A stretch of DNA of 24,052 nt from a virus: IMG/VR virus record IMGVR_UViG_3300045999_006400, positions 1-24,052 of that record; one strand, given 5' to 3'. A model generated the notes under the pieces. The model searched no databases. It was not told where the DNA came from and saw only the letters and a program-made list of their open reading frames with translations. Shown piece after piece: positions 864-21,876 of this stretch (its first letter is position 1; every line of letters begins with the position of its first letter). Made by a program: the position numbers and the translations under genes.

Positions 864-886
864 TAACAATAAAATTGGAGCAGCGA

Positions 887-2683: not shown

Positions 2684-2693
2684 TTGATATAAA

Positions 2694-3332: not shown

Positions 3333-3333
3333 T

Positions 3334-3616: not shown

Positions 3617-3625
3617 GGAGATATT

Positions 3626-3760: not shown

Positions 3761-4002
3761 AAAAAGTTTTAAGATTTACAGCATCATGGTGTGGACCATG
3801 TAAAATGCTAGCTAAAACATTAGACGAAGTTGAAACTAATATACCAATTGAAGTGATTGATATTGATGTCAATCCAGAAATTGCAACAGAATTTGGCATT
3901 CGTAGTGTACCAACATTGGTAATCGTTGAAGATAATATGGCATCAAAAAGACTCATAGGAAATAAAACAAAACAAGAACTAGAGGCATTCATCAATGATT
4001 AA
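3757..4002 (+). CDS. Thioredoxin-like protein (short)
   Basis: This small redox protein carries the canonical active site WCGPC (residues 11-15) and the cis-proline loop SVPT (Pro52). At 81 residues it is shorter than E. coli thioredoxin (about 108): it starts directly at the strand before the active site and so lacks the first strand and helix, like many phage thioredoxins and glutaredoxins. It probably reduces the C-terminal CxxC of the NrdA encoded upstream. Its start overlaps the preceding gene by 4 nt and its end overlaps nrdB by 8 nt, so the three are probably translated together. Confidence 0.9.
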   Translation: MKKVLRFTASWCGPCKMLAKTLDEVETNIPIEVIDIDVNPEIATEFGIRSVPTLVIVEDNMASKRLIGNKTKQELEAFIND

Positions 4003-4987: not shown

Positions 4988-4989
4988 TA

Positions 4990-4996
4990 CTAAATA
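4990..4996 (+). promoter_or_regulatory. Candidate phage late-type promoter (CTAAATA)
   Basis: The heptamer CTAAATA just after nrdB resembles the T4-type late promoter core (TATAAATA). The same heptamer precedes the IscA-like gene (7586) and, on the other strand, the tail-fibre block (23334-23340), so three transcription units share it. It lies 104 nt before pstS. In AT-rich DNA such a short motif can occur by chance. Confidence 0.35.
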
Positions 4997-4999
4997 TAA

Positions 5000-5026
5000 A
5001 GTCTGATTATCTTTTTTTGTCGGACT
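5000..5026 (+). promoter_or_regulatory. Hairpin in the pstS leader
   Basis: AGTCTGA (5000-5006) can pair with TCGGACT (5020-5026) with one G-U wobble, leaving a 13-nt U-rich loop. The right arm can instead pair with TAGTCT at 5078-5083, near the pstS ribosome-binding site. No T-run follows the stem, so it does not look like a terminator. It may be a leader structure if transcription starts upstream of 5000. Confidence 0.3.
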
Positions 5027-5046
5027 ATTAAAAAAAATTCTAAATT

Positions 5047-5064
5047 GTGACGGTTCCGTTACAC
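5047..5064 (+). promoter_or_regulatory. Pho-box-like site upstream of pstS
   Basis: Two 7-mers, GTGACGG and GTTACAC, are separated by TTCC, giving the 7-4-7 spacing of a PhoB box. They match the reverse form of the consensus half-site (ATGACAG) at 5 and 4 of 7 positions. The same bases form an imperfect palindrome (TGTGACGG / CCGT-TA-CACA). A PhoB-type site would let the host's phosphate-starvation response switch on the phage pstS gene, as shown for cyanophage pstS by others. The match is modest. Confidence 0.35.
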
Positions 5065-5100
5065 AGAACGATTTTAGTAGTCTAACCTAAAGGAGATAAT

Positions 5101-6123
5101 ATGAAGAAGTTTTTAGTATCATTAATGTTGTTCACAGGAGTCGCATCAGCCGCAGATTTAACAGGAGCTGGTGCGACTTTTCCATTTCCAATCTATGCTA
5201 AGTGGGCAGAAGCATATAAAGCAGCCACTGGTATTGGACTCAACTATCAATCAATTGGTTCGGGCGGTGGTATCAAACAAATCAAAGCAAAGACTGTAGA
5301 CTTTGGTGCAAGTGATATGCCATTGAAGCCTGAAGAATTAGACAAAGAAGGTCTAATGCAATTTCCAGCAGTAATTGGCGGTGTAGTACCAGTATTCAAT
5401 CTTGACGGTGTAGCAGCAGGTCAATTAAAATTAACACCAGAAGTTATTGCAAACATTCATCTTGGTAAAATCACAAAGTGGAACGATAAAGCAATTGTTG
5501 ATTTGAATCCTGGTGTAAATCTTCCAGCATTAGCAATCACAGTTGTTCATCGTGCAGACGGTTCAGGCACTACATTCATTTGGACAAACTTCTTAGGTAA
5601 AGCAAATCCCGAGTTTGCAAAGACTGTAGGTGAAGGCACAGCAGTAAAATGGCCAGTTGGTGTAGGTGGTAAAGGTAATGAAGGTGTTGCTGTTCAAGTA
5701 CAAAGAATCAAAGGTGCATTTGGCTATGTAGAATATGCATATGCAAAAAGAAATAAAATTGCACACGCACAATTAAAAAATCGTGATGGTGTTTTTGTAC
5801 AACCAAGTGACGATTCATTCAAAGCCGCAGCAGCAAACGCAGATTGGAACAATGCACCAGGAATGTATTTGTTACTCACATGGCAAACAGGTAAAGAAGC
5901 ATGGCCAGCAACAGGTGCAAGTTTCATTCTCATGCACAAACAACAAGCAGATACATTGACAGGTCGTGCAGTTCTCAAATTCTTTGATTGGAGTTGGAAG
6001 AATGGTGCTAAGATGAGTGAAGAACTAGAATATGTTCATTTACCACAATCAGTCATCAAACTAAACCAAGACAATTGGCGCCGTGACTTAAAAGGTCCAG
6101 ACAACAACCCAATTTGGAAATAA
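5101..6123 (+). CDS. pstS: Periplasmic phosphate-binding protein PstS
   Basis: PstS captures phosphate in the periplasm and hands it to the host PstCAB transporter. The 340-residue protein begins with a Sec signal peptide that probably ends at VASA, before ADL. Phosphate-binding segments are visible: GAGATFPFPIY near the mature N-terminus, SIGSGGGI, FGASD, and HRADGSGTT in the middle. The length is normal. The ribosome-binding site AAAGGAG lies 5 nt before ATG 5101. A porin gene follows after 9 nt, so the two are probably one transcript. Phage pstS genes are known from cyanophages and pelagiphages and are thought to sustain phosphate uptake during infection. No PstA, PstB or PstC genes are in the window. 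Confidence 0.95.
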   Translation: MKKFLVSLMLFTGVASAADLTGAGATFPFPIYAKWAEAYKAATGIGLNYQSIGSGGGIKQIKAKTVDFGASDMPLKPEELDKEGLMQFPAVIGGVVPVFNLDGVAAGQLKLTPEVIANIHLGKITKWNDKAIVDLNPGVNLPALAITVVHRADGSGTTFIWTNFLGKANPEFAKTVGEGTAVKWPVGVGGKGNEGVAVQVQRIKGAFGYVEYAYAKRNKIAHAQLKNRDGVFVQPSDDSFKAAAANADWNNAPGMYLLLTWQTGKEAWPATGASFILMHKQQADTLTGRAVLKFFDWSWKNGAKMSEELEYVHLPQSVIKLNQDNWRRDLKGPDNNPIWK

Positions 6124-6132
6124 GGATAAATT

Positions 6133-7539
6133 ATGAAACTATTTAAAAAACTATCTATCGTAGTTGCATTAACCGCAGTAATTCCTGCATATGCTGATGA
6201 GTATAAAGATACACTTGATCTTTTACTACAAAAAGGTATTATTACTCAGCAAGAATATAATACAAAAATTGAAGCACACACTGAGCGTTTAGAGAACAAA
6301 CAGTTTAATGCTGCTCGTATTGATAAAGACTTGCGTGACAACAATAATGCGAGATTTGCTAAGGCTAATGATGGTTCAGTTATGGAAAACGGAATTGGAC
6401 TTAAATCAAAAGATGGGAACAATACGGCACAGTTTACAGGTCGAATTCATATGGACTATCGCCAATACACACCAGATTATGGTGTCGGTCAAACCACGGA
6501 TTCGTATCAAAACTTAGCCGAAGTTCGTCGTGCTAGATTTGGTGTTCGTGGTCAGTTTGCAAAAGACTTCAAATATCAATTACTAGCAAACTTTGGTGCA
6601 AGTGATGGCTTTAGTTCTACATCATCTACAGCCGATGAAATGTGGGTGAACTATGCAGCAAATCCAGAAATGCAATTTCAATTTGGTTTATTCAAGATGC
6701 CATTCAGTCTTGAGCAAATGACAAGTTCAAACAATCTAGATTTTATGGAACGTAGTTTGATTGGTCAGAATGACACTGAATTCATTCCTGCAAAAGAAAC
6801 TGGTTTCATGTTACATGGTGTGCCAAAACCTGGCCTTACATATGCTATAGCAGCAAGTAGGGGCAAATCCAATAAGAGCGCAGAGTTCGATGGACTTGAT
6901 TATATTGGTCGTGTAACAACTAATATTGCTGAACTAACAGGCAGCAAAGCATATACTGCACACTTAGGTGCAGCATACAGCACAGGTGAAATTAAGAGTG
7001 GTGTTGCACCAGCCAGTGGTAGAACAGAATCCCGTATGCAGTCTGGTTGGTTTACAGGTTCCGCATTGAGTGGTGCTACTACAAGAACACGCCAAGGATT
7101 AGAAGCAGCGTTTGCATATAACGGTTTCAAAGTTCAAGGCGAACAGTTCAATTTTAAATATGATGCTGCAACAGGTAGTGACCAAGAAATCAAAGGGTAC
7201 TATGTACAAGCAGTTTATAATTTAACTGGCGAATCACATGCATACAAAGATGGTGCGTTTGGTTGGATTAAACCAAATAATCCAATCGACAAAGGTGGTC
7301 GTGGTGCATGGCAAGTTGGTGTGCGTATGAGTGAGTTTGATGCAAGTGATGTATCCGTTGCAACAGGCAAATCAAATCGTGCTACCGCAATGACATATGG
7401 TTTAACTTGGTTCTGTACTGACAACCTACGTTTCATGTTAAACTATGTTGATACTAAGTTTGATGCGTTGGTTGGTTCTTCAGGTAGTCGTGTAACAGGT
7501 GATAAAGCAATTATGTTTAGAAGTCAATTAAGTTTCTAA
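6133..7539 (+). CDS. Phosphate-selective porin (OprP/OprO family)
   Basis: This 468-residue protein looks like an outer-membrane beta-barrel of the phosphate/polyphosphate-selective porin family. It has a signal peptide ending AYA before DEYKD, an N-terminal helix of the type LDLLLQKGIITQQEYNTKI, FTGRIHMDYRQY as first strand, RRARFGVRG, and FGLFKMPFSLEQMTSSNNL followed by DFMERS, as typical for the family. It ends in phenylalanine, the usual signal for barrel assembly. The family forms trimers whose arginine-lined channel favours phosphate; the individual ladder residues were not assigned. It sits 9 nt after pstS and before a strong terminator, which together suggest outer-membrane entry plus periplasmic capture of phosphate. 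It has no frameshift and full length. Confidence 0.88.
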   Translation: MKLFKKLSIVVALTAVIPAYADEYKDTLDLLLQKGIITQQEYNTKIEAHTERLENKQFNAARIDKDLRDNNNARFAKANDGSVMENGIGLKSKDGNNTAQFTGRIHMDYRQYTPDYGVGQTTDSYQNLAEVRRARFGVRGQFAKDFKYQLLANFGASDGFSSTSSTADEMWVNYAANPEMQFQFGLFKMPFSLEQMTSSNNLDFMERSLIGQNDTEFIPAKETGFMLHGVPKPGLTYAIAASRGKSNKSAEFDGLDYIGRVTTNIAELTGSKAYTAHLGAAYSTGEIKSGVAPASGRTESRMQSGWFTGSALSGATTRTRQGLEAAFAYNGFKVQGEQFNFKYDAATGSDQEIKGYYVQAVYNLTGESHAYKDGAFGWIKPNNPIDKGGRGAWQVGVRMSEFDASDVSVATGKSNRATAMTYGLTWFCTDNLRFMLNYVDTKFDALVGSSGSRVTGDKAIMFRSQLSF

Positions 7540-7556
7540 AAATTTTTTGTTATACT

Positions 7557-7582
7557 AAAAGCCTCGTAAGAGGCTTTTTTTT
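7557..7582 (+). terminator. Rho-independent terminator after the porin gene
   Basis: AAAAGCCTC (7557-7565), loop GTAA, and GAGGCTTTT (7570-7578) form a perfect 9-bp stem that runs into eight T residues. It lies 18 nt after the porin stop and separates the phosphate unit from the next genes. It is the strongest terminator in the window. Confidence 0.9.
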
Positions 7583-7585
7583 CGT

Positions 7586-7592
7586 CTAAATA
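7586..7592 (+). promoter_or_regulatory. Candidate late-type promoter (CTAAATA)
   Basis: CTAAATA occurs just after the terminator, where a new promoter is expected, 19 nt before the next start codon. With the preceding base it reads TCTAAATA, 7 of 8 matches to the T4 late core TATAAATA. It is the best placed of the three copies of this heptamer. Confidence 0.45.
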
Positions 7593-7611
7593 AAGATCGA
7601 AGGAGAAATCT

Positions 7612-7932
7612 ATGATCACAATGACTGAACTCGCATCACGCAAAACTTTAAACTCTTTAAACAAAAGAGGAAAAGGATTAGGCATTAAGGTTGGTGTTAG
7701 AACCACAGGTTGCAGTGGTTTAGCCTATACATTAGAATATGTTGATAGTGTATCGGACACAGATACTATATACGAATCTAACGGTGTTAAAATTTTTGTT
7801 GACCCAAAACATATTCCTTATCTGAACGGAATGGAAATAGATTGGAAAAGAAATGGACTCAATGAAGGTTTTGATTTTATAAATTCTTTAGAAAAGAATC
7901 GATGTGGTTGTGGTGAAAGTTTTAATATTTAA
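7612..7932 (+). CDS. IscA/HesB-like Fe-S cluster carrier
   Basis: A-type carriers bind an Fe-S cluster and pass it to target enzymes. The 106-residue protein has the three diagnostic cysteines: Cys34 in TTGCSGLAY, and Cys98 and Cys100 in the C-terminal CGCGESF. Length and motif spacing are normal. ATG 7612 is chosen because AGGAG ends 6 nt upstream; a second ATG lies three codons in. The gene is first after the porin terminator and is followed by the nuclease gene after 9 nt. Similar genes occur in marine T4-like phages; which phage or host enzyme is served is unknown. Confidence 0.9.
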   Translation: MITMTELASRKTLNSLNKRGKGLGIKVGVRTTGCSGLAYTLEYVDSVSDTDTIYESNGVKIFVDPKHIPYLNGMEIDWKRNGLNEGFDFINSLEKNRCGCGESFNI

Positions 7933-7941
7933 GGAGAAAGA

Positions 7942-8391
7942 ATGAAATTAACAAAAATACTTTTAATTGGTCTATTATCTTTCGCTGGTATAGGAAATGT
8001 TTATGCTGACAAAACAGCAAAAGGTGTAACGTATGATGCACAAATTGTACGAGTGAGTGACGGCGATACTATTGTAATCGCTGCTCCATTTTTACCTGCA
8101 CCACTTAAACCAGAATTAGCCGTTCGTATCTATGGTGTTGATACTCCAGAAAAAGGATTTCGTGGGCAATGCGAAAGTGAGAAACAACGTGGTGAAGCGG
8201 CAAGTGCATTTACTAAAAATCTAGTTGCAAAGTCCACTAAGCGACAAGTTACTCTTTACGGTTGGGATAAATTTGGTGGTCGTGTATTAGGTGATATGAT
8301 TCTAGATGGTCAAAGTCTCCGTAGTATGTTAATTCAAAACGGTTTCGCTCGGGAATATTTTGGTGAAGCCAAACAATCTTGGTGTCAATAA
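7942..8391 (+). CDS. Exported thermonuclease-like (SNase) nuclease
   Basis: This 149-residue protein has a Sec-type signal sequence (MKLTKILLIGLLSFAGIGNV, cleavage likely after YA) and a staphylococcal-nuclease domain. The catalytic set is present with correct spacing: Asp42 (SDGDT), Arg62 and Asp67 (RIYGVDTPE), Glu70 and Arg114 (GGRVLG). The family cuts DNA or RNA with calcium. The signal sequence places it in the periplasm or outside, so it may degrade extracellular or periplasmic DNA, recycle nucleotides or phosphate, or act on competing phage DNA; none of these is shown. The ribosome-binding site AAGGAG overlaps the stop of the gene before. The stop codon shares one base with the next start (TAATG). 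Confidence 0.88.
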   Translation: MKLTKILLIGLLSFAGIGNVYADKTAKGVTYDAQIVRVSDGDTIVIAAPFLPAPLKPELAVRIYGVDTPEKGFRGQCESEKQRGEAASAFTKNLVAKSTKRQVTLYGWDKFGGRVLGDMILDGQSLRSMLIQNGFAREYFGEAKQSWCQ

Positions 8392-9245: not shown

Positions 9246-10406
9246 TTAAACAAACCAAGTAATAATAGAATATCTAGTGCCTTTGATTACAGGCATAATT
9301 TCGTGTGGATACATAAAATTTGAAGGGAACATGATTACTGATCCTTTCTTTAAATTATAAATCAACTCTCTATCAAAGAAAGCAAATTCTCCACCTTCAA
9401 AATCATCATTTAGTGCGAAAGAACAAGACACCGCTCTAGGATGTTTTTTGTATGAATCTGTATGTTGCCGGTAAAATTGCCCTACCTCGTACTTCAATAA
9501 ATCATATCCGGAATCTTCTTCTATTTGACTTAGGGGGAAAATATCATTATATTTTCTAATAACCTCATTTGCAACTTTATAAAGTCTATCATCTAAAAGT
9601 TTTCTTATTTCGGGATTTTTTAAAATTGTATTTTCGTGTGAAATGGGAATTGTATTTACATTTCTAGCGTTCAAATTTATTTCTTCGTATCCTACTCCAG
9701 CAAGACACCAATTATCATCATTCCTATACTCATTTATAATTTCATCACATAGTGAGTAGGGAATAATATCTTCATAAATTTGAATGAAATCTGATATTTT
9801 ATTTTTGGAGTTTATTTTAACTGGTGTTGTTTTTTCTTGTTTTACACTTTCTTCTTTTTTGATTGGAGAATCTTTTTTCTTATCAAAATAAGTATAAGCT
9901 TTATCACCTCTACTTCTAACATAATGTAAAAATACCTGAACATATTCTTTACCTAAAAATTGATTTCTCCAATGATCAGCAACACATCCCAAATAAAGCA
10001 TTGCATCACCTGGTTTTAGAATCAATTCAACTTCATTACCATCTGGAGTTTCAATATAAATTGGCCAATCTTCATCACCATCTAAATGTACAGTTAAACT
10101 TATTTCGCAAGCATCTCTATCCCTATGTCTTTCCAGAACACTACCATCTTTATACACTCTAGCATAACTATACGTTGGTAAAACGGTTTCACCTATAATT
10201 GTGCTCACCGTTGGTACTTTATCACATAGCATTTCTAAAAAGTCTATGAAATTATATTCTGCTGAAGAATTTGGAGCTTGATTGTCTCCTTGAACCTCAT
10301 TTTGTTTACAATGACTTTTGAAGTTGGAAGCCATGACTTTTGCAGCGGCTTCACTAATGAAGTTGGGAATATAGATATAATTATTTTCAGTTAATGATTT
10401 ATTCAT
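9246..10406 (-). CDS. Two-domain 2-oxoglutarate/Fe(II) oxygenase
   Basis: This 386-residue protein joins two dioxygenase domains. The N-terminal half has an HxD (His94, Asp96) and a distal His145 with Lys153 as the likely 2-oxoglutarate contact. The C-terminal half is a clearer prolyl-4-hydroxylase-like domain: His315/Asp317 (FYRQHTD), a GGEFAFF strand, His368 (YPHEIMP) and Arg378 (GTRYSI). A Lys-rich linker (residues 170-200) separates them. Both iron sites look intact. The start at 10406 is chosen over an upstream in-frame ATG at 10466, which would overlap the neighbour. The family hydroxylates proteins or small molecules. Sitting at the end of the fibre operon, it could modify a virion protein; that is inference. 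Confidence 0.85.
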   Translation of the reverse strand: MNKSLTENNYIYIPNFISEAAAKVMASNFKSHCKQNEVQGDNQAPNSSAEYNFIDFLEMLCDKVPTVSTIIGETVLPTYSYARVYKDGSVLERHRDRDACEISLTVHLDGDEDWPIYIETPDGNEVELILKPGDAMLYLGCVADHWRNQFLGKEYVQVFLHYVRSRGDKAYTYFDKKKDSPIKKEESVKQEKTTPVKINSKNKISDFIQIYEDIIPYSLCDEIINEYRNDDNWCLAGVGYEEINLNARNVNTIPISHENTILKNPEIRKLLDDRLYKVANEVIRKYNDIFPLSQIEEDSGYDLLKYEVGQFYRQHTDSYKKHPRAVSCSFALNDDFEGGEFAFFDRELIYNLKKGSVIMFPSNFMYPHEIMPVIKGTRYSIITWFV

Positions 10407-10425
10407 AATATAATCACTTTTTAAT

Positions 10426-10785
10426 TTAATTGTTTTCTGCTGCTGCAGCGGCTTCATCAGCAGCATCTGATGCTGCTAGTTCAGATTGTTTTATATTATA
10501 TGCTTGCAACCATACATCATAACAGTTGATAGCCCATTGTGGTAATTCAGTTATATTTTCATTAGGATCATTCGATCTAAATTCTAACCAACCAGATCCT
10601 TGGCCATATTGCAATCCATTTAGATGGGAATTTTGTTTATCTGGCCAAATGGGATTATTCCATTGTAATGCATGTATATTATCTGGTATTCCACATTGAG
10701 ATAAGTCTAACTCTGATAAACCTTCTTGGTCTGTAACGACAATACCATCAACAGGAATTACTACTAATTTATGTGTTTGAATCAT
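10426..10785 (-). CDS. Tail-fibre-associated small protein, possible assembly chaperone
   Basis: This 119-residue protein is encoded just after the tip-like genes, where fibre-assembly chaperones are often found. It has a beta-rich N-terminus (HKLVVIPVDGIVVTD), an IHALQWNN motif, a GSGWLEF strand, a segment LPQWAINCYDVWLQAYN that looks helical, and an alanine-rich tail (ASDAADEAAAAAENN). The IHALQW...GW.EF combination recurs in small proteins next to fibre genes of other phages, but no firm family could be named. AAAGG lies before ATG 10785. A promoter-like sequence lies upstream at 10819-10847, so it may also be transcribed separately with the oxygenase gene. Confidence 0.6.
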   Translation of the reverse strand: MIQTHKLVVIPVDGIVVTDQEGLSELDLSQCGIPDNIHALQWNNPIWPDKQNSHLNGLQYGQGSGWLEFRSNDPNENITELPQWAINCYDVWLQAYNIKQSELAASDAADEAAAAAENN

Positions 10786-10818: not shown

Positions 10819-10847
10819 ATTATATATGAATTAGTTTAAAGAAGCAA
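10819..10847 (-). promoter_or_regulatory. Candidate sigma-70 promoter for the chaperone-oxygenase genes
   Basis: On the minus strand TTGCTT (10842-10847) and a perfect TATAAT (10819-10824) are spaced 17 bases apart. The predicted start of transcription, about 10812, leaves a short leader to ATG 10785. It would allow the last three genes of the block to be read apart from the fibres. AT-rich sequence makes chance matches likely. Confidence 0.35.
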
Positions 10848-11328
10848 TAATAACATCAATATAATTTACCGCTATTGTAGGATTTGGACTAAAAACATCA
10901 CCAATAGCTGTAATTGTAATTGGGTGATTGTGCGCTCCTGAACTACCTACTGGTGTGCCGAACGCCGAGCCGGTTGGCACTGATGGAGTCATAGCGGGTA
11001 TAGTTGCTGGAGCCGTAGCATTTGTGGGTATGGTACCGGTTCCAATAGCAAATCTATTTGTTGATGGCGTAATGGGATGAAGGTGGTATGGTAACTGAGC
11101 TCCACTTAAGGTATGGCCACCTACTGTATAAGGAACTTCAACTATAAATCGATACGTTGGACTGACTTTAAATCCTGTTGTGAAATCAACAGTGCCTCCA
11201 GAGCTTAAAGACGATCCATTTACTACTCGAAGTGCGTGATTATCATAATTCACAGTTTCTTTCGTCCAACCAGTGGGTGCGGATGTTTGGTGAAAAATTG
11301 TTTTTGTTCCGGAATCAAAAATAGCCAC
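10831..11328 (-). CDS. Tail-fibre tip/collar-like protein, HxH paralog 3
   Basis: This 165-residue protein begins with the fibre-associated motif SAPTGWTKETVNYDNHALRV, has a glycine/serine-rich beta middle part, and carries two HxH elements: HLH in LPYHLHPI and HNH in GAHNHPITI. It ends IAVNYIDVIIASLN. In T4 gp37, HxH motifs of a trimer coordinate iron in the receptor-binding needle, so these may hold metal ions on a trimer axis; this is inference by analogy. It is the last of three tandem paralogs and is 2 nt from its neighbour. It is probably a small receptor-binding or fibre-tip protein of the virion. Confidence 0.7.
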   Translation of the reverse strand: MAIFDSGTKTIFHQTSAPTGWTKETVNYDNHALRVVNGSSLSSGGTVDFTTGFKVSPTYRFIVEVPYTVGGHTLSGAQLPYHLHPITPSTNRFAIGTGTIPTNATAPATIPAMTPSVPTGSAFGTPVGSSGAHNHPITITAIGDVFSPNPTIAVNYIDVIIASLN

Positions 11329-11330
11329 GA

Positions 11331-11828
11331 TTAACTCCTAACCGCTATAATAGTGTCAACGTATTTTATATTCAAATTTATTTCTGAATTAACTCCACCC
11401 TGATTAATTGAACCAGTAACGGCTACAGTTCCAATTGGATGAGTGTGACCTCCTCCTCCACCAGGATTATTATTGTACTGAATTGGTGCTGCAGCAGGTG
11501 TTTTCGATGCATTAGTTCCGCCAGCACCAGGTCGCCTAGTTACCGTTGCGCCTGGGTGCGGTATAGTAATATGACTATGCGTTGTCATTGCCGCATTGTC
11601 TATCACTGTAGAACCCACAGCAGAATAAGAAAGACCGGGTGCCGGTACGCCAATACTATTATAATTTTTAAAAACTGTAGAAAAAGACTCTCCTGTAGTT
11701 CTATTAATAACAGAACCGGTAGTTACTCTTAGTGCATAATCATTATATGTAGTATCTTTTGTCCATCCCGTTGGTGGAGTGGTCATTTTCATTATTGTTC
11801 TTGATCCTGATTCTATAACTAAAGCCAT
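11331..11828 (-). CDS. Tail-fibre tip/collar-like protein, HxH paralog 2
   Basis: This is the second of three paralogs and has 165 residues. It shares PPTGWTKDTTYNDYALRVTT near the N-terminus and LNIKYVDTIIAVRS at the C-terminus with its neighbours. Two HxH elements are present: HSH (TTHSHITI) and HTH (GGHTHPIGT). The middle is variable and rich in Gly, Pro and Ala (GAGGTNASKTPAAAPIQYNN), which suggests that loop regions have diverged while the frame was kept. It probably forms part of a fibre tip or collar. Intergenic gaps of 1-2 nt on both sides imply co-translation. Confidence 0.7.
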   Translation of the reverse strand: MALVIESGSRTIMKMTTPPTGWTKDTTYNDYALRVTTGSVINRTTGESFSTVFKNYNSIGVPAPGLSYSAVGSTVIDNAAMTTHSHITIPHPGATVTRRPGAGGTNASKTPAAAPIQYNNNPGGGGGHTHPIGTVAVTGSINQGGVNSEINLNIKYVDTIIAVRS

Positions 11829-11829
11829 A

Positions 11830-12393
11830 TTAAGTCCTTGTTGCTAAAATTGAATCCACATATTTAATAGCTAAATCCACTGTAGTGAAGGTTATAGGAC
11901 TTGTTGCTGGATTCAATGGATGATCATGTGCGGTCGCTGTAACTCCAGGATTAACACCACCCGGAAACACTACGCCAGGTGTAAACTGATTCTGTATAGT
12001 TCTGCTTGTTGATGGTCCAGGAATTAATGGTTGAGTTAAAGTTCCCACAACTGTCGCTGCAGCAGGATAAGGTCCGTGGTTGTGGGAGGGTATCATACTA
12101 GATGTAAGTGATGTTCCTCCTACGGTTCCAGTTACCGATAGACTACCAGTTAAATCTTTTGATGACATGACAGAAGAAAATCCTGATGATCCTCCACTTG
12201 ATACTGATCCTGTAACACATCGTAGAGTATAGTCATTGTCTGAAGTATCTTTAACCCACCCTGTTGGCGCTGATCCTTGTAAAACAAAGACCATAGTGGC
12301 GCCTTGGTAATTGGCTTGTTCTGGATCGCCAGTTGCTACTGAACCAATTACAGAATTTAAAACGAATGTGTTTATCGAAGATAATCTAGGCAT
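11830..12393 (-). CDS. Tail-fibre tip/collar-like protein, HxH paralog 1
   Basis: This is the first and longest of the three paralogs (187 residues), with about 30 extra N-terminal residues (MPRLSSINTFVLNSVIGSVA). Then come SAPTGWVKDTSDNDYTLRCV and a beta-rich core with HNH (PSHNHGPY) and HDH (AHDHPLNP). The end LAIKYVDSILATRT matches the other two. It lies 2 nt after the giant fibre gene and so probably works with it, perhaps at its tip. Possible roles are receptor binding or fibre capping. Family: phage collar/fibre-tip-like by motif only. Confidence 0.7.
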   Translation of the reverse strand: MPRLSSINTFVLNSVIGSVATGDPEQANYQGATMVFVLQGSAPTGWVKDTSDNDYTLRCVTGSVSSGGSSGFSSVMSSKDLTGSLSVTGTVGGTSLTSSMIPSHNHGPYPAAATVVGTLTQPLIPGPSTSRTIQNQFTPGVVFPGGVNPGVTATAHDHPLNPATSPITFTTVDLAIKYVDSILATRT

Positions 12394-12395
12394 AT

Positions 12396-15300
12396 TTAAC
12401 CAAAAGTAATTTCAGATCCAAATACGGACCATGAAGATCCTATTCTTAATAAATTAAATGAATAAAATTCAGTTTTGTTTGCTGTTGGTGTCGGTGCTGC
12501 ACCGCCAGCCCAATTAATTGTTTGTGATGCACCATCTATTTGTACGGCATTTGGTATATATCCTGTTGCACCTTGTACTATGACAATTGTAACTGTAATA
12601 GATCGACTTGTTGTGGTTGGTACATTTGTAAAATTTGCAGTAAAGTTTGCTGCAGCACTTGTGTGATAAAAAACAGAACCATTAGTTAAGTTATGAGTTA
12701 CTGTTCCTGTAGCACCAGTTAATGTACTTAAAACTTCTGTTACTTCTTGTAAAGTAGTGAATCCTGTTACCGTTAAATCACCAGAAATCGTACCACCACT
12801 TGTATCTAGTCGAGTATTTGCAGAAGCAAAAGCACCATTAGCATAACTAGATGCGGCAGTAACATTTGTGGAAGTTGTATTAGAAGTACCAAAAGCTGAA
12901 TTAGCATAACTACCACTCGTTACAGCTCTTTGATCGGCGGTATTAGCGGCGTCATAAGCAGCATTAGCATAAGAACCAGACGTTACAGCTTTTTGATCAG
13001 CTGTTGCAGCATTTGTTGTAGCACTGTTGGCCTGACCGTATGCAGCATTAGCATAACTAGATGCTGCGGTGACATTTGTTGCAACTGTATTTGCAGTACC
13101 ATAAGCTGAATTGGCATAAGAACCAGACGTTACAGCTCTTTGATCAGCTGTTGCAGCATTAGTGGTTGCTGTATTTGCTTGTGTATATGCTGAGTTAGCA
13201 TAAGATCCTGATGTTACAGCTCTCTGGTCAGCGGTTGCAGCATTAGTGGTTGCTGTGTTTGATTGGCCGTATGCCGAATTAGCATATGATCCACTTGTTA
13301 CAGCTTTTTGGTCTGCCGTTGCAGAATTAGTAATGGCAGTATTTGCTGCATCATAAGCAAAGTTGGCATGATTAGACGCAACTGTAGTATTAGCTAATGC
13401 GGTATTTGCCGTAGAATATGCTGAGTTAGCATATGACTCAGCTGAACTTCGTGCGAAATCTGCACTATTTAAACCATCAAGTAAATCTGCATCAAGACCC
13501 GAACCTGTACCATCATTACCAGCATGCCATATTGTATTGGCATCATATGTGAGTGGACCTGATCCTGCACGACCTAATAATTTACCATCATTATTACCAA
13601 ATATGATGTAACCGTTTGCAGCGTTTTGTATACCCTTAATTCGAATCGTATCGCCAATATTTGTATCACCGATCCATGCATCATCACCAACCTTATAGTT
13701 CGTTCCACTTCCATTATTAGCAGTTTCAACATAATCAAAAGTTATACCTTGTGTTGAAGAAACTGCTTTTATTCCAGCAATCAATGAGGTATTTGAAACT
13801 GCGCCTGTAACACCAGCAACAGAAGTTACACCGCCACCACCACCAGCCAATAAATTTGTTCCAACGCTAGTATCACATGATGACAAATCAATATACACAC
13901 CACGATTTGTGCCGCTATCTTCAAAGATACGAATTTTATTTTGATGTGCATCAATAACTATACCACCAGCCAATGTTCCATTGGGAGGTTTACCTAAAAA
14001 CATTTCACCACCCTCATCTCCACCTTGTGCTAAAGCTCTAAGTGTGCCTGAAATGTTTAATTCGCCGTTAAAAATTGCGCCACTAGTATTTGCAAGTGCA
14101 TTGTTAGCTTTACTATATGCTGAGTTAGCATACGATCCAGCACTTACAGATTTTTGATCAGCAGTATTAGCGGCAACAAAAGCACCATTAGCATAAGAAC
14201 TAGCCGAATTCGCCACACCAAAAGAAATATTGGTGTGATCAATAGGATCGTAACCCCTTACAGTAATTGTAGTAGTTTCAATATTTGCTTTTAGTCTAGC
14301 AATTTGAAATGTATTATTTGCAACATCTATAGTATTATTTGGTGTTGCAGTATCAAAACTAGGATCAACGTAGTTATGGAACAGATAAAATGATTCATCT
14401 GTGGCATCACGGAAAAGACCAGCATGTTTTTTAGTTATACCAGAATCTTGACTATAATGTCCAAAAAATCCAATATCAAGTGTATCAGATGTTTCATTGT
14501 TGGCCGCCAATTGAATCAAAGCGTCATCCACTTTTAAGTCTGAAACGGAAATACTGGTAGCATTACCAAATACAAGCAAATTACCAGTAATACTTAAATC
14601 ACCAGATATCGCACCACCCGTTGTAGATAATTTCGTATTTGCGGTATCATAAGCAGAATTGGCATAACTGGATGCAACATTAGATGTGTCATAAGCTGAA
14701 TTGGCGTAAACTCCTGATGTTACAGCTCTTTGATCCGATGTATTAGCAGTACCAAATGCTGAGTTAGCATAATTAGACGCAGAATTGGATGTGTCATAAG
14801 CAGCATTAGCATATGAACCTGAAGTTACTGCCTTTTGATCTGCGGTATTAGCAACACCGAATGCTGAGTTAGCATAATTAGATGCAACATTAGCTGTGTC
14901 GTAAGCAGCATTAGCGTATGAACCTGAAGTTACGGCTTTTTGATCCGCGGCATTAGCAGTACCAAATGCTGAATTGGCATAACTAGAAGCGAGAGTCGCA
15001 AAATTTGATGTAGTGTTCGATAACCAAAACGCTGAATTGGCATAATCACCAGCAGAAATAGAATTAGTATTAGCTGTGTTTGCAATACCATAAGCACTAT
15101 TAGCATAATCACCAGAAGTCACTGCTCTTTGGTCGGCTGTTGCAGAACTAGTGGTTGCTGTATTCGCAACACCATACGCTGAATTAGCATAATCTCCGGA
15201 TGTTACTGCTCTCTGATCCGCTGATGCAACATTCGTGTTAGCAGTATTTGCTTGTAAATATGCGGAATTAGCATAATCTCCGGATGTTATTGCTTTCTGG

Positions 15301-17489
15301 TCAGCTGATGCAACATTCGTGTTAGCTGTATTTGCTTGCAAATAAGCACCATTCGCATAATCACCCGAAGTAATTGCTTTCTGGTCAGCTGATGCAGCAT
15401 TAGTGTTAGCAGTATTGGCTTGTAGATATGCAGAATTAGCATAAGAACTTGCCATCGTAGCTTTACTATCAGAAGTGTTGGCTGTAGAGAATGAACTGTT
15501 AGCATAGTCGCCACTAGTTACTGCTCTTTGGTCGGATGTTGCAGCATTTGTTGTAGCGGTGTTTGCTTGACTATACCCACTATTAGCATACGAACTTGCA
15601 CTATTTGAGGCATCTCTAGCCCAAGAATCGGTAATACCACTATTTGCAACATCAAATGCAGCATTAGCGTAAATACCAGCAGAAATAGAATTAGTATTAG
15701 CAGTATTAGCTGTATTGTAGGCAGAATTGGCATAGACACCAGATGTTACAGCTCGTTGTTCAGCAGTTGCAGCATTGGTATTGGCTGTATTTGCCTGTAA
15801 ATATGCTGAGTTAGCGTATGATCCTGCCGAAATTGCTTTTTGATCTGCTGTATTGGCAAGGCCGTAAGCTGAATTGGCATAAGTAGATGCAGCATTAGCG
15901 GTGTCTCTAGCTAAAGTATCTGGTAATCCTGTATTAGCTGCAGCAAAAGCCGCATTAGCATATACACCGGATGATATTGCATTTGTATTGGAAGTGTTTG
16001 CTTGTGAATATGCAGCGTTGGCATAAGCACTAGAAATTAATAAATCTGAACTGACACTATTTGCTAAGTCATAAGCAGAATTAGCATAATCGCCGGATGT
16101 TACCGCTTTTTGATTTGCTGTATTTGCATTAGAAAAAGCACCGTTAGCATACGAACCGGCAGAATTAGCAGCATCAAAAGAAACATTAGTGTGATTTATT
16201 GGATCGTAACCACGAACAGAAATAGTATTTGTAATTATATTTGCTGTTAAATTAGCTATTCTAAATGATGAATTAGCAACATCAATTGTATTATTTGGAG
16301 AACTAGTGTCAAAACTGGGATCTTCATAATTGTAAAATAGATAATATAATCCATCAGTTGCATCACGGAAAAGACCTGTATGTTTTCTACTCGTTCCATC
16401 ATCTGGACTATAATGTCCAAAAAATCCAATATCAAGTGTATCAGAGGTTTCGTTATTGGCAGCTAATTGAATTAACGGATCATCTATTTTGATATCCGAT
16501 ACTGCAATAGTTGAAGCATTACCAAGAACAGTTAAATTGCCAGTAATACTTAAATCACCTGATATTGTACCACCTGTTGAATTTAATTTACTATTCGCAG
16601 TAATATAAGCAGAGTTGGCATAAGAACCAGCAGAAACAGAATTAGTATTGGCTGTGTTAGCAACAGCAAAAGCTGCATTAGCATAACTTGAAGTGGAATT
16701 TGATATAACATAAGCTTCGTTAGCTGTGTAATAAGCTGAGTTGGCATAATTACTACTTATCGTTGCATTTTGATCAGTGGTATTAGCTTGTAAATAAGCA
16801 CTATTAGCATAATCACCACTTATCACTGCTCTTTGATCAGCCGTAGCAACATTAGTATTGGCTGTATTTGCTTGACTATATGCAGCATTAGCATAACTAC
16901 CAGAAGTTACAGCTCTTTGGTCAGCTGTTGCGGCATTGGTATTGGCTGTGTTAGCAACACCATATGCCGAATTAGCATAATCTCCCGATGTTATAGCTCT
17001 TTGATCAGCAGTACTAGCGGTACCTAATGCAGCATCAGCAGTTCCTTGTGCTGAACTAGCAGCACTTGCGGCTGTATTAGCAGCACCATATGCTGAGTTA
17101 GCATAACTGGATGCAGCATTAGCTGTACTTCTTGCTAAAGTATCTGGCGATCCTGTATTAGCAGCAGCATAAGCGGCATTAGCAGCATCAAATGCAGCAT
17201 TAGAATGTGGTCTAGCATAATTGTCCACTGAACCAGATGTTGCTGAATTTGCTAAACCAAATGCAGCATTAGCATATAATCCAGCACTGTTTGCTGTATT
17301 TCTAGCATATGCATCTATTGGATCTGCTACAGCTGTATTGGCCGCAGAAAATGCCTGATTAGCATATGACGCCGCAGAATTTGCTACCGCTAAGGCAGTA
17401 GATATGTTTGCAGCAACCGATGAACTTAAGTCAGATTGCTGAATCGTTCCAGGTTGAATTAAACCGTCTGTTAGTTGTGTTAATGCCAT
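12396..17489 (-). CDS. Giant tail-fibre protein with alanine-core coiled-coil shaft
   Basis: This 1697-residue protein is the largest in the window. A short N-terminus (GLIQPGTIQQSDL) probably attaches it. Three long shaft segments (about residues 20-300, 440-950 and 1350-1560) repeat units such as YANSAYGVANTA and ADQRAVTSGS, with periods of 14, 21 or 28 residues. Alanine falls on nearly every 3-4 spaced core position, so an alanine-zipper coiled coil is likely. Two copies of a ~135-residue globular domain (about 300-436 and 955-1086) and a third insert ending in IWHAGNDGTGSGLDADLLDG (about 1140-1345) interrupt the shaft. The C-terminal ~130 residues form a beta-rich end (SWSVFGSEITFG). It is very probably a trimeric long tail fibre that recognises the host. 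Confidence 0.88.
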   Translation of the reverse strand: MALTQLTDGLIQPGTIQQSDLSSSVAANISTALAVANSAASYANQAFSAANTAVADPIDAYARNTANSAGLYANAAFGLANSATSGSVDNYARPHSNAAFDAANAAYAAANTGSPDTLARSTANAASSYANSAYGAANTAASAASSAQGTADAALGTASTADQRAITSGDYANSAYGVANTANTNAATADQRAVTSGSYANAAYSQANTANTNVATADQRAVISGDYANSAYLQANTTDQNATISSNYANSAYYTANEAYVISNSTSSYANAAFAVANTANTNSVSAGSYANSAYITANSKLNSTGGTISGDLSITGNLTVLGNASTIAVSDIKIDDPLIQLAANNETSDTLDIGFFGHYSPDDGTSRKHTGLFRDATDGLYYLFYNYEDPSFDTSSPNNTIDVANSSFRIANLTANIITNTISVRGYDPINHTNVSFDAANSAGSYANGAFSNANTANQKAVTSGDYANSAYDLANSVSSDLLISSAYANAAYSQANTSNTNAISSGVYANAAFAAANTGLPDTLARDTANAASTYANSAYGLANTADQKAISAGSYANSAYLQANTANTNAATAEQRAVTSGVYANSAYNTANTANTNSISAGIYANAAFDVANSGITDSWARDASNSASSYANSGYSQANTATTNAATSDQRAVTSGDYANSSFSTANTSDSKATMASSYANSAYLQANTANTNAASADQKAITSGDYANGAYLQANTANTNVASADQKAITSGDYANSAYLQANTANTNVASADQRAVTSGDYANSAYGVANTATTSSATADQRAVTSGDYANSAYGIANTANTNSISAGDYANSAFWLSNTTSNFATLASSYANSAFGTANAADQKAVTSGSYANAAYDTANVASNYANSAFGVANTADQKAVTSGSYANAAYDTSNSASNYANSAFGTANTSDQRAVTSGVYANSAYDTSNVASSYANSAYDTANTKLSTTGGAISGDLSITGNLLVFGNATSISVSDLKVDDALIQLAANNETSDTLDIGFFGHYSQDSGITKKHAGLFRDATDESFYLFHNYVDPSFDTATPNNTIDVANNTFQIARLKANIETTTITVRGYDPIDHTNISFGVANSASSYANGAFVAANTADQKSVSAGSYANSAYSKANNALANTSGAIFNGELNISGTLRALAQGGDEGGEMFLGKPPNGTLAGGIVIDAHQNKIRIFEDSGTNRGVYIDLSSCDTSVGTNLLAGGGGGVTSVAGVTGAVSNTSLIAGIKAVSSTQGITFDYVETANNGSGTNYKVGDDAWIGDTNIGDTIRIKGIQNAANGYIIFGNNDGKLLGRAGSGPLTYDANTIWHAGNDGTGSGLDADLLDGLNSADFARSSAESYANSAYSTANTALANTTVASNHANFAYDAANTAITNSATADQKAVTSGSYANSAYGQSNTATTNAATADQRAVTSGSYANSAYTQANTATTNAATADQRAVTSGSYANSAYGTANTVATNVTAASSYANAAYGQANSATTNAATADQKAVTSGSYANAAYDAANTADQRAVTSGSYANSAFGTSNTTSTNVTAASSYANGAFASANTRLDTSGGTISGDLTVTGFTTLQEVTEVLSTLTGATGTVTHNLTNGSVFYHTSAAANFTANFTNVPTTTSRSITVTIVIVQGATGYIPNAVQIDGASQTINWAGGAAPTPTANKTEFYSFNLLRIGSSWSVFGSEITFG
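14225..14632 (-). repeat. Second copy of the fibre's internal globular domain
   Basis: The encoded segment runs from SGDLSITGNLLVFGN through NNETSDTLDIGFFGHYSQDS and GLFRDAT to GYDPIDHTNISF. It repeats the segment at 16185-16590 at the protein level with mostly conservative changes, so the fibre gene has an internal duplication. It is part of the giant fibre gene, not a separate gene. Confidence 0.85.
15187..15438 (-). repeat. Three 84-bp tandem units in the fibre shaft
   Basis: Units begin at 15187, 15271 and 15355, exactly 84 bp (28 residues, four heptads) apart. By eye the first two differ at roughly 11 of 84 bases. They are the most alike stretch of the shaft and point to recent duplication by slippage or recombination. 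Confidence 0.8.
16185..16590 (-). repeat. First copy of the fibre's internal globular domain
   Basis: This copy encodes SGDLSITGNLTVLGN, NNETSDTLDIGFFGHYSPDD, GLFRDAT and GYDPINHTNVSF. It is the partner of the copy at 14225-14632, and about 510 residues of shaft lie between them. Confidence 0.85.
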
Positions 17490-17501: not shown

Positions 17502-20500
17502 TTATTTTAATTTGTGTTTACTTGGTACAGTAAAATTGGAAGTATAACGAGCAATACCTTTAGTGATACGGAAATCATCTATGTAACCATTAAAATTAAA
17601 TGAATTGCCTGAATATGATCCAATATGTAGTTTACCCATATTACCGACTATTGTAGAAGCAGAAGTCAAAGTATTGGAACCTATTGATTGACCATTTGAA
17701 TATATGGATATGTTAGTTCCGTTTCTAACAAGTGCTATATGATACCATGTTCCAGTTACGAATGATCCAACTCCTGCTATCCAAAATGCACCAGCATTCA
17801 TTGTGCCTACTGCTAATGCTACTGTCCCACCAGCAGTTCCGGCTATGTCAAATGTAAAACCACCTTGTGTATCATATCCACTATCGCCCCACCCTTGATT
17901 AATTAATGCGGCTCTACTATTCACATCATTGAAATAGAACCATCCTTCTATTGTAAAATTGCCAGTTCCAAAAGAAAGTTGTGGTGAACTTACCAAAGCA
18001 CCAGTGGACAAGTTATCTCCACTACCATCGAAAAATAATGATGCGTTGTCATATCTTTTAATATTATTTCTTATCTGCGTATTACCTAAAGTTCTTAAAA
18101 AATTTCTTGCAGTGGAGTCTATTATACTACCATTTGTTCCATTGAGTAATAATGTAGTTCCCGACACTGGTGTTGCTGGAGTTGTTGGTGGAGTGAAATT
18201 CGAAGTATAAAGTGCAGTTCCCTTAACAAGTCTTACATTTGAAATGTAACCCGTAAAAGGAAAATTACCATCTTCTCTTGCCCCGATACTAGTTACTCTT
18301 GCTGATGAAGTTATAGAAGTCGATATTGAACCACTACCTGCACTAGTGCCATTTACGTAAATAGTTAATGTATTAGAATTTCGTACATACGCAATATGGC
18401 TCCATGTATTTAAAGAGAGTGTCGCTGTGCCTGTTACTGTGGTAAGATTGTTATACAAAAAATTTACTGTGCCTGATGTAAAATAAGCAGCAAAACTATA
18501 TCCAGAACCATCAAATGTTCTTGTGACAGGTAAAGTTTCTGTGGGATTTGTCTGGGGGAAGGCCCAAAATTCTATAGTAAAATTTCCAGATCCAAATTCA
18601 AATGCTGCATTATTTGGAACAGTTAAGTAATCTCCAGTGCCATCAAAAAACATACTGCCACCGACATCACTTATCGACCATTCAATCGTAGGTTTAAATG
18701 GACCGAATGGTTGTACTGAAGGACTTCCATAAGTAGTAATTACTCTATTGTTTGTACTATTATCAATTAAACGATTGGATTGACATGATAATAAACTTGT
18801 ATTTGTAATTGCGGTTAAAGGTGTGGTGCTTGGTGTAAAACTAGAGGTATATAATCCAGTTCCTGCGATTAGTCTTGCGTTTGAAATGTAACCGAAAAAA
18901 GAATCTGTAGTTGCGTATCTACCTATATTAACGAATCCAGTATTACCGCCACGATTTGTTAATGTGCTAGTTCCTGTAACACTTTGTAGAGTTCCATTTA
19001 TAAAAAGTCTTATGGTATTTGAATTGACTGATACTGCAATATGTGACCATTCGTTTAAAGGTACAGTTCCAACTGAAGTGGTATTAAATCCTGATGCACC
19101 GTCATACCATCGCCAAACTACATTACGTGATTCTGTTAAACCAAATCCCCAATAAGAACCACCCGCTTCCCCACTCGCATCAACAACTACTTGTGCTACT
19201 CCTCCACCAAACGTAGGGTTAGCAGTTGGAAACACCCATGCTTCTATAGTAAAATTGGATTGAGAAGTGGATATAGGACTACCTGTGTATCGAACCGCAC
19301 TACTACCATTAAAATGACAACTCCAACCTGTTTGGCTAAATGGGCTAAAATTACCTTGAGTTACATCACCATTTCTTGTAATTAAATGATTCAATCCCGA
19401 AGTATCTACAAAACGACTATTAGTTTCACCAAATCTTGATTGTAGTGTCAATAAACTTGTGTTTGCAATCGCTGTTAGTGGGCTGGTAGGTGGAGTAAAT
19501 GCTGATGTATATAATCCGGTGCCCTTTAATATACGAAGATTTGAAATATAACCGCTAAAAGTGTTATCAGTAACAGGAGATCCACTGGTCCAATATGTAG
19601 CAATACCAAATGGCGCTGATGTTCCATAATTATTGGTGTCACTATAAGTTGATCCTGACTGAGTACCATTAACAAATAATCGAGTTGAACCTGAATTTCT
19701 ACACAATGCAATATGATACCATTGTCCTGTAACTAAAGATGCTCCTGTAATTCGGTCAGCATTCGCTGTATAATAACGAATTGAACTGCTGATATAAAGG
19801 TGCGGATTAGTACTAGAGGCACTAGTTAGATTACTGACTACTGTTTGTAATCCCACGGAATTAGGATACATCCAAAATTCAATTGTGAAGTCACCTGTGC
19901 CATATCCATAGCTTGAATTATCTGGAACAGTTAAAGAATCGGTAGCACCATCAAAATAAGCACTACCCGTTGTAACATCCGTTTCAGTAAAAGGACCAAA
20001 ATTACTTACCGTTACATCACCATTGCGTGTAAGTGCAAAATTATTTGTACTATTATCAATTAAACGATTTGATTGACAGGTTAATAAACTTGTGTTTGCA
20101 ATTGCTGTTAATGGTGATGTTGGAGGTGTAAAAGTAGTTGTGTATAAAACTGAATTAGTTACCCTAAAATTTGAAATATAACCATTAAACGCTCCGTCAC
20201 CAGTAGCGTTGATGCCACCTATATCAAAATTTGAGCCTGCTGCGTAACCTTCGGTATATGTACCTGTAGCATTTAATGAACCGTTAATGAATACTTTTAT
20301 ATTACCTGCAGTGGCTGTACATGCGAAATGCTGCCAAACATTTGCTGTAACTGTAAACGTTGCACCTGTTGATTCTTGAAATACTTTTGCTATTTTATTG
20401 TTCCCCCAATTACGGAGTATACTAGTTTCACCTGGGCCACCATCAAATAATCCAATAACGGTTGTAGAGAAAGGATATATCCAACATTCTATTGTAACAT

Positions 20501-21392
20501 CATTGTTTGCTATTAATACACCTGATCCTGATTTTCTTAAATAATCTCCACTACCATCAAAGAAATTACTCCAAACGGTTTCATAAGGACTAAATGCCAT
20601 TGGTCTTGTATCGCCGTTCACTGTCAATGCAAATTTATTTGTACTAACATCTGTAATCCAGGTATTATTGGAAGTTTCACCATTAATTAATAAAACTGTT
20701 TCTCTAAAATAAGTATCGCCAACTGCTACTGTAATATTAAATGATCTAGCAGTTTCTTGATTTTGTGCATCAATCGCATCAACACTAAAACTATAAGTTG
20801 TTTCAGCTTCTATTCCCGATACGGTACCATAGAAATAACCATTTGATGATAAGAATGTTCCTGATGGTAAAGAACTACCCGATGAAACTGCATATGTAAT
20901 TGTGCCATCGCCAGCTGCACCCGAAGCCACCAAATTAATTGCAAATGCGGTTCCCGAATCTTGAGTTGTTAGTGGTGAAGTTGTAGTCCATGAAGGTGTA
21001 CCGTTTGCATTGAGTGATCGTAAATAGATTGAACCTGATCCATCAGTATTGACCACATAAACATCTAATACACCACTACTTAATGCTGGTACTGTAACAT
21101 TTAATCGTGAAGAACTTACGAACGCTGTTGATGTTGCGGCTGTACCTTGAATGTAAACTGCTGCACCACTTTGAAATCCTGTACCATTGATGATCATGTA
21201 ACCACCAGTGGTTTCAATAGCAGTATCGTCTTTTGCGACAAACGTAGAATTCGCAATTTGAATTGAAGAAATATTTACAGTTGCACCGCCACCACCACTA
21301 CCAATACCTGTAATAATATTTACAGGTGTTACAGCTGCAGCAGTAACGCCTCGATTAATTATTGTTTGCGAACTTGTTCTACGAATTGCCAT
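17502..21392 (-). CDS. Large adhesin with IPT/Ig-like N-terminus and five LamG-like domains
   Basis: This 1296-residue protein is a modular adhesin. The N-terminal part has an IPT/TIG-like domain (about residues 45-130, GGYMIINGTGFQSGAAVYIQ) and a putative-Ig (He_PIG) domain (about 130-222, SSGSSLPSGTFLSSNGYF). Then come five concanavalin/LamG-like repeats starting near residues 274, 477, 694, 913 and 1120. Each contains F(D/N)G..., FTIE.W, WYHIA or WSHIA, a (V/I)NG turn, GYISN.R and YTS.FTPP. LamG-like folds often bind glycans, so it probably binds host surface sugars. Linkers with RLIDNSTNNFALTRNGDV recur between domains. Its start codon overlaps the stop of the VLGQ gene by one base. The weak ribosome-binding site is consistent with coupling. 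Confidence 0.85.
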   Translation of the reverse strand: MAIRRTSSQTIINRGVTAAAVTPVNIITGIGSGGGGATVNISSIQIANSTFVAKDDTAIETTGGYMIINGTGFQSGAAVYIQGTAATSTAFVSSSRLNVTVPALSSGVLDVYVVNTDGSGSIYLRSLNANGTPSWTTTSPLTTQDSGTAFAINLVASGAAGDGTITYAVSSGSSLPSGTFLSSNGYFYGTVSGIEAETTYSFSVDAIDAQNQETARSFNITVAVGDTYFRETVLLINGETSNNTWITDVSTNKFALTVNGDTRPMAFSPYETVWSNFFDGSGDYLRKSGSGVLIANNDVTIECWIYPFSTTVIGLFDGGPGETSILRNWGNNKIAKVFQESTGATFTVTANVWQHFACTATAGNIKVFINGSLNATGTYTEGYAAGSNFDIGGINATGDGAFNGYISNFRVTNSVLYTTTFTPPTSPLTAIANTSLLTCQSNRLIDNSTNNFALTRNGDVTVSNFGPFTETDVTTGSAYFDGATDSLTVPDNSSYGYGTGDFTIEFWMYPNSVGLQTVVSNLTSASSTNPHLYISSSIRYYTANADRITGASLVTGQWYHIALCRNSGSTRLFVNGTQSGSTYSDTNNYGTSAPFGIATYWTSGSPVTDNTFSGYISNLRILKGTGLYTSAFTPPTSPLTAIANTSLLTLQSRFGETNSRFVDTSGLNHLITRNGDVTQGNFSPFSQTGWSCHFNGSSAVRYTGSPISTSQSNFTIEAWVFPTANPTFGGGVAQVVVDASGEAGGSYWGFGLTESRNVVWRWYDGASGFNTTSVGTVPLNEWSHIAVSVNSNTIRLFINGTLQSVTGTSTLTNRGGNTGFVNIGRYATTDSFFGYISNARLIAGTGLYTSSFTPSTTPLTAITNTSLLSCQSNRLIDNSTNNRVITTYGSPSVQPFGPFKPTIEWSISDVGGSMFFDGTGDYLTVPNNAAFEFGSGNFTIEFWAFPQTNPTETLPVTRTFDGSGYSFAAYFTSGTVNFLYNNLTTVTGTATLSLNTWSHIAYVRNSNTLTIYVNGTSAGSGSISTSITSSARVTSIGAREDGNFPFTGYISNVRLVKGTALYTSNFTPPTTPATPVSGTTLLLNGTNGSIIDSTARNFLRTLGNTQIRNNIKRYDNASLFFDGSGDNLSTGALVSSPQLSFGTGNFTIEGWFYFNDVNSRAALINQGWGDSGYDTQGGFTFDIAGTAGGTVALAVGTMNAGAFWIAGVGSFVTGTWYHIALVRNGTNISIYSNGQSIGSNTLTSASTIVGNMGKLHIGSYSGNSFNFNGYIDDFRITKGIARYTSNFTVPSKHKLK

Positions 21393-21723: not shown

Positions 21724-21876
21724 TTACATTCCCGAAAGTACGAATGGATGAAATTGTGTTGCTGTATTTGCTGTAGCCATTGCGTAATTAATGTTCGCAG
21801 TAACTTCAGTATTTAAGTCTGCTGTTTTGATTGTACCTGGCTTAATAAGACCAGGTGAAAGTTTTGTGATTGTCAT
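21724..21876 (-). CDS. Small fibre-N-terminus-like protein ending in LSGM
   Basis: This 50-residue protein starts at ATG 21876; a longer in-frame start at 21975 would lie within the glycine-rich gene and is rejected. Its N-terminus (TKLSPGLIKPGTIKTADL, then NTEVTANI) closely resembles the first 30 residues of the giant fibre (TQLTDGLIQPGTIQQSDLSS). Here it stands alone and ends FHPFVLSGM. The gene at 23113-23310 also ends in LSGM. It could be an attachment or adaptor peptide for the adhesin cassette, or a remnant of a fibre N-terminus. The 4-nt gap to the gene upstream and 2-nt gap downstream support a real gene. Confidence 0.65.
   Translation of the reverse strand: MTITKLSPGLIKPGTIKTADLNTEVTANINYAMATANTATQFHPFVLSGM

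Follow-up and report, generated by a model that had tools for sequence, protein, structure and literature searches.

Genomic context of a long fiber gene

The window analyzed here, the whole 24,052-nt stretch of DNA of an uncultured aquatic phage, carries on its minus strand a 1697-residue open reading frame (ORF) read from position 17489 to 12396 (Table 1). ORF calling recovered this frame as a preliminary description of the sequence had proposed it, and the plus strand contains many stops across the same interval. A Pfam search with the encoded protein yielded no match. PHROG searches matched it to tail-fiber families 33642 (E = 1.9e-16), 13173, 13481, and 25042, and to PHROG 19280, a family of unknown function. 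As the tail-fiber matches are repeat rich, we take them as support rather than proof; along with the neighboring genes and a shared C-terminal tip, they support the assignment of the product as a putative phage fiber.

Table 1. Features of the fiber gene and its immediate neighbors in the 24,052-nt window
Feature	Coordinates	Strand	Basis
1296-residue protein, five laminin-G/concanavalin-like stretches; PHROG virion structural/baseplate wedge	17502..21392	-	Pfam-type and PHROG matches
Fiber gene, 1697 aa	12396..17489	-	ORF; PHROG matches
Probable virion anchor at the N terminus, residues 1-32	17394..17489	-	Start nearly the same in sister locus L002
Weaker coil and register-reset joints, residues 33-118	17136..17393	-	Sequence; outside strict register
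Coil array 1, continuous heptads, residues 119-299	16593..17135	-	Small-residue register
Beta module 1, residues 300-440	16170..16592	-	Other copy of module modeled by AlphaFold2
Coil array 2, residues 441-952, 512 residues, in register except two one-residue skips	14634..16169	-	Register; C-terminal part modeled as helix
Register-reset joint DTLAR, residues 524-528	15906..15920	-	D-x-[YWLFT]-[AVG]-R motif
Register-reset joint DSWAR, residues 621-625	15615..15629	-	D-x-[YWLFT]-[AVG]-R motif
Beta module 2, residues 953-1092	14214..14633	-	AlphaFold2 strands
Short coil, residues 1093-1130	14100..14213	-	AlphaFold2 helix after beta module 2
Non-coil module, residues 1131-1349	13443..14099	-	Part matches DSL-LC03 protein
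Coil array 3, residues 1350-1558	12816..13442	-	Small-residue register
C-terminal tip domain, residues 1559-1697	12399..12815	-	Domain also ends Ala-coil, collagen, and other proteins
Three consecutive small collar-like proteins, paired HxH motifs in each	10831..12393	-	ORFs; same order in L002

Within the fiber, coil is interrupted by two beta modules of ~140 residues, one module of ~220 residues, and two one-residue register skips. The beta module occurs in ~70 distinct copies across the window and related loci, and residues 1249-1325 match a protein of Synechococcus phage DSL-LC03 at 54.5%. In the sister locus L002, gene order is conserved on both sides of the fiber, whose start (MPLTQLTDGLIQPGTIQQSDL...) is nearly identical to the N terminus in the window.

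The L002 counterpart of the laminin-G/concanavalin-like neighbor is shorter (893 residues). The three small proteins share an APTGWTKD/E-type start and lack a credible Pfam match; their HxH pairs (e.g., HNHG/HDHP) resemble the metal-binding histidine pairs of phage fiber tips. Upstream of the cluster, a minus-strand ORF stretch of 50 codons at 21724-21876 (MTITKLSPGLIKPGTIKTADLNTEVTANINYAMATANTATQF...) resembles the fiber N terminus (MALTQLTDGLIQPGTIQQSDL...), as if it were a truncated copy of the putative anchor segment. A 2OG-Fe(II) oxygenase gene that could modify a structural protein lies directly behind the fiber cluster (9246-10466, minus strand), a position kept in L002. Plus-strand genes at 195-8391 encode a ThyX-like protein, ribonucleotide reductase subunits, a thioredoxin-like protein, a PstS-like phosphate binding protein, a phosphate-selective porin O/P, an Fe-S assembly protein, and an SNase nuclease. 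Carriage of the porin by a phage seems unusual, and a peptide scan of genomes found no bacterial relative.

An alanine heptad register

By motif count, the fiber contains 42 [YFH]AN[SAGF][AGS][YF] units. The preliminary description had shaft units repeating in multiples of seven residues (14, 21, and 28), and such spacings, along with 42, do recur; the exceptions are two spacings of 27, one of 57, and three inserts, two of them of 157 and one of 233. Its scheme for a 28-residue unit, with alanine or, once, serine at positions 2, 5, 9, 12, 16, 19, 23, and 26, is exact in five of the twelve units of that length (171, 558, 683, 1430, and 1479), all with serine at 26, while one or two core sites are changed to valine, serine, or glycine in the rest.

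A heptad register fitted from small residues at positions a and d alone, leaving the YAN motif unused, spans 898 of the 1697 residues in three arrays (Table 1) and includes 512 of 512 positions between residues 441 and 952. Coverage was 0 in all 100 shuffles of the whole protein and in all 100 of residues 441-952. At a period of 3.5 residues, the Fourier power of alanine was 24-31 across the three arrays, whereas none of 2000 shuffles exceeded 8.2. Over ~130 heptads, position a is 84% alanine and 10% serine (94% combined) and position d is 73% alanine and 20% serine (93%); b is 64% asparagine and c is 76% threonine or serine. Asparagine, threonine, serine, and glycine, which are poor helix formers, abound at positions b, c, e, and f, and this counts against a helical explanation of the shaft. 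Overall, the evidence supports an alpha-helical heptad coil with a core composed almost entirely of alanine and serine. The coil of about 1000 almost all-alanine residues envisaged from the sequence is thereby upheld as to its alanine/serine core and helical heptads but shortened to an interrupted ~900 residues by the strict register; the total could reach ~1000 when weaker ends are counted.

At the DNA level, units share a median identity of 73%, with 27% of bases differing. Synonymous change between them is near saturation (pS 0.59) and nonsynonymous change is low (pN 0.16), indicating that the repeat pattern is old and selected rather than the outcome of recent DNA slippage.

Structure prediction

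Monomer AlphaFold2 modeling of residues 882-1126, using an alignment of 49 module copies, returned a 74-residue uninterrupted helix (residues 883-956) and a 44-residue helix (residues 1082-1125) with the beta module between them, at a mean pLDDT of 77.5. Block pLDDT within beta module 2 was mostly 56-93, with one loop at 47. No usable model was obtained for residues 430-1130 (701 residues, repeat-rich alignment; mean pLDDT 34). The preliminary description had weighed its coiled coil against a beta-helix or solenoid with alanines outside the core; the shaft piece modeled has a predicted alpha-helical backbone at a pLDDT of about 80, which disfavors a beta-solenoid.

Foldseek retrieved similar proteins of uncultured phages from BFVD and nothing from the PDB at E <= 0.001. 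Sequence searches of the PDB, for which the queries were the fiber itself, a pair of profiles, and the coil of lambda Stf, gave nothing credible; a match to gp120 (E = 0.029) was judged to be due to chance.

Relatives in uncultured phages

Relatives of the fiber are encoded at 62 IMG/VR loci; of the 1089 spacings between units there, 886 are divisible by seven, and 21 is the commonest. Among the matches listed, which include loci from a DNA-pattern scan for the YANxAY unit as well as loci from protein search, the heptad register is kept across 122 non-redundant ORFs, and the largest fiber (L012; IMGVR_UViG_3300008117_004657) is at least 3658 residues long, 1917 of which are coil, and carries 106 YAN units. 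Closely related fibers differ in length: those of L002 and L003 are 100% identical apart from a clean difference of 105 residues (15 heptads), which could be an assembly collapse of repeats, those of L001 and L004 by indels of 28, 70, and 70 residues plus two one-residue gaps, and those of L038 and L035 by two indels of 28.

T4-type gp23 was found on six of ten related contigs tested, and the capsid region of one related contig is nearest to those of Methylophilales phage Melnitz and S-PM2, which together indicate that many of the relatives are T4-like. The 24-kb window itself contains no capsid gene. The preliminary description suggested seeking the same repeat in other phages, and it recurs at the 62 loci. 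Isolates were scanned with an exact degenerate pattern, and no instance turned up in the seven genomes covered (lambda, P-SSM2, HTVC008M, DSL-LC01, DSL-LC03, Melnitz, and S-PM2). This shaft type is common among uncultured T4-like phages.

Aromatic residues at positions e and g

The tyrosines and phenylalanines noted earlier at fixed flanking sites recur at g and e. Across the 122 non-redundant ORFs, among the matches listed, tyrosine, phenylalanine, and tryptophan account for 42.5% of the residues at e and 29.3% of those at g, compared with at most 1.5% at any other position. An aromatic at g is followed by one at e five residues later in 1813 of 1924 cases (94%), an odds ratio of 61 overall against 0.03 at offset -2, again among the matches listed. 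For the loci that came from protein search and not from the YANxAY DNA pattern, the g-to-e(+5) odds ratio was 334, although some of the query peptides did include YAN motifs. In a crude ideal parallel trimer, the closest e/g pair is g and e'(+5), with C-beta atoms 6.3-6.9 Å apart, and the closeness at +5 extends to modeled dimers and tetramers. Contacts between g and e' are of the type made in parallel coiled coils. The placement of the aromatics at e and g and their pairing at +5 suggest an inter-chain clasp, in which tyrosine and phenylalanine would probably meet between chains at g-e'.

Joints that reset the register

Unit spacings not divisible by seven fall into a few defined joint types. 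After D-x-[YWLFT]-[AVG]-R joints, the register restarts so that arginine occupies e in 110 of the 111 joints that could be scored; upstream of D-x-(W/Y/F/L)-(A/V/G)-R joints, the register varies. Alpha/beta coiled coils with beta-layers tolerate insertions of two or six residues, and their downstream register likewise restarts at e (PMC4786415). Inserts of 2 and 6 are present among the fiber joints, as are inserts of 1, 3, and 5. The fiber motif, D-x-[WYFL]-[AVG]-R, differs from the published beta-layer consensus [aliphatic]-A-T-K-[polar]-[DE] (PMC4786415). For this reason we put forward a beta-layer identity of the joints as a hypothesis, and a rather doubtful one. Near the N termini of the L038 and L042 fibers, G-G-(I/V)-P-L-A-R directly precedes the coil and is similar to the Mtd beta-layer GGFPLAR (PMC4786415).

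The tip domain

The C-terminal tip domain caps 12 collagen-class shafts (all of the collagen-class hits), 9 alanine coils, and 42 other shafts. One of the collagen proteins, from Actinomycetia phage DSL-LC01, has the same tip at 51% identity. Collagen forms a triple helix. Since the tip caps both collagen and alanine-coil shafts, it is most simply trimeric, and the stalk is probably a homotrimer.

A proposed trimeric alanine-cored stalk and its alternatives

With a probability of roughly three in four, we interpret the gene product as a long virion fiber in which a parallel homotrimeric alanine-core coil alternates with beta modules and terminates in the tip domain, i.e., a tail fiber stalk, most likely that of a T4-like phage. 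The chains would lie in register as alpha helices, with alanine or serine at nearly all a and d positions. Because such a core buries little side chain, we propose that each YAN-x-A-Y/F unit adds a clasp, with tyrosine at g packing on tyrosine or phenylalanine at e' (+5) of the next chain. Beta modules would punctuate the helical rod, D-x-(W/Y/F/L)-(A/V/G)-R joints would restart the helix with arginine at e, and coil arrays would change length by whole heptads. The tip, swapped among shaft types, may nucleate trimerization and touch the host. The expected contour of the coil is ~133 nm (898 x 0.1485 nm).

The same coil could instead be sited elsewhere on the virion, as a head, collar, or whisker fiber or a baseplate spacer, and not bind the host as a tail fiber. 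This is consistent with the absence of tail genes beyond the fiber cluster in the 24-kb window; the PHROG tail-fiber matches, the tip domain, and the collar-like neighbors make it unlikely. We consider it less probable still that the alanine-cored helices form a dimer (Alacoil), a tetramer, or a folded-back antiparallel bundle. Alanine cores do allow close dimers, and geometry by itself cannot tell two, three, and four chains apart. However, g-to-e(+5) aromatic pairing is a parallel-chain contact, which speaks against an antiparallel bundle, and the tip also caps collagen, which is trimeric. The PCoil precedent discussed below is trimeric as well (PMC3368898).

Beta structure occurs in many phage shafts, the modules adjoining the coil are beta, and the composition is rich in asparagine, serine, threonine, glycine, and tyrosine, all of which would suit a beta-solenoid or triple beta-spiral with a 14-residue rung and incidental alanines. 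Against this stand the alanine period of 3.5 residues, the AlphaFold2 helix, and a commonest spacing of 21 residues, with which a fixed 14-residue rung is incompatible, and we judge such a shaft highly improbable. The chance that the arrays are a low-complexity expansion with no selected structure appears negligible: alanine content (20%), repeats, and in-phase indels might hint at one, but the median difference between units is 27% of bases, synonymous change is saturated and nonsynonymous change low, and the register is held over 122 non-redundant ORFs among the matches listed. An ice-binding alanine-rich bundle was also considered and dropped, as no context favored it.

Comparison with known alanine-cored stalks

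The rarity first ascribed to an alanine-cored shaft was overstated, as lambda Stf, PCoil, and DT57C LtfA are already heptad stalks of this kind. The designed alanine-zipper Lpp-56 is reportedly a trimer with alanine at all a and d positions; it may resemble the shaft but is engineered and short. Lambda Stf (orf-401, J02459) maintains a continuous register over 222 residues with 69% alanine at a and 97% at d, and its alanine period of 3.49 is near the 3.5 of the window shaft; unlike the window fiber, it has 75% serine at g, contains lysine and glutamate, and has no aromatic at any position. The lateral tail fiber LtfA of DT57C, a three-helix bundle by cryo-EM (PMC10713586), also has an alanine core (87% at a and 93% at d over residues 128-226) but differs in the 99 residues covered by the register test, a charged surface, and the lack of aromatics.

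The PCoil of EPclA/EPclB, E. coli O157:H7 prophage fibers, has alanine/serine heptads, and CD, AUC, and light scattering show it to be a helical trimer (PMC3368898). It shares with the window fiber a near-absence of leucine and isoleucine, length steps of seven, and a stalk joined to globular modules. PCoil has a loose Ala-X-X-Ala/Ser-X-X-Ser pattern, an often charged outside, and a ~14-16 nm stalk, whereas the window fiber has arrays of up to 512 residues, a mostly uncharged asparagine/serine/threonine surface, and tyrosine or phenylalanine at e and g; an aromatic clasp is not described for PCoil in the passages cited (PMC3368898). The likeness is one of principle, and we do not claim PCoil-type membership.

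Given these precedents, the window shaft is best regarded as a variant that is longer, mostly uncharged, putatively aromatic clasped, and equipped with reset joints. Length, a proposed tyrosine/phenylalanine clasp in each unit, and register-resetting joints are what it adds to the known stalks. More tentatively, it may represent a separate coiled-coil design, in which a nearly side-chain-free alanine core is held mainly by a g-e' Tyr-Tyr/Phe ladder beneath a mostly uncharged asparagine/serine/threonine surface, with register-resetting beta-layer joints and growth by whole heptads to ~1,900 coil residues per chain. The shaft could show whether circumferential aromatic contacts replace a hydrophobic core, which would be useful for the design of thin rods. 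Alanine at a and d plus YAN-x-A-Y/F every 14-28 residues provides a simple, testable sequence rule for very long predicted coils in virus fibers, here those of uncultured phages that are abundant in aquatic environments.
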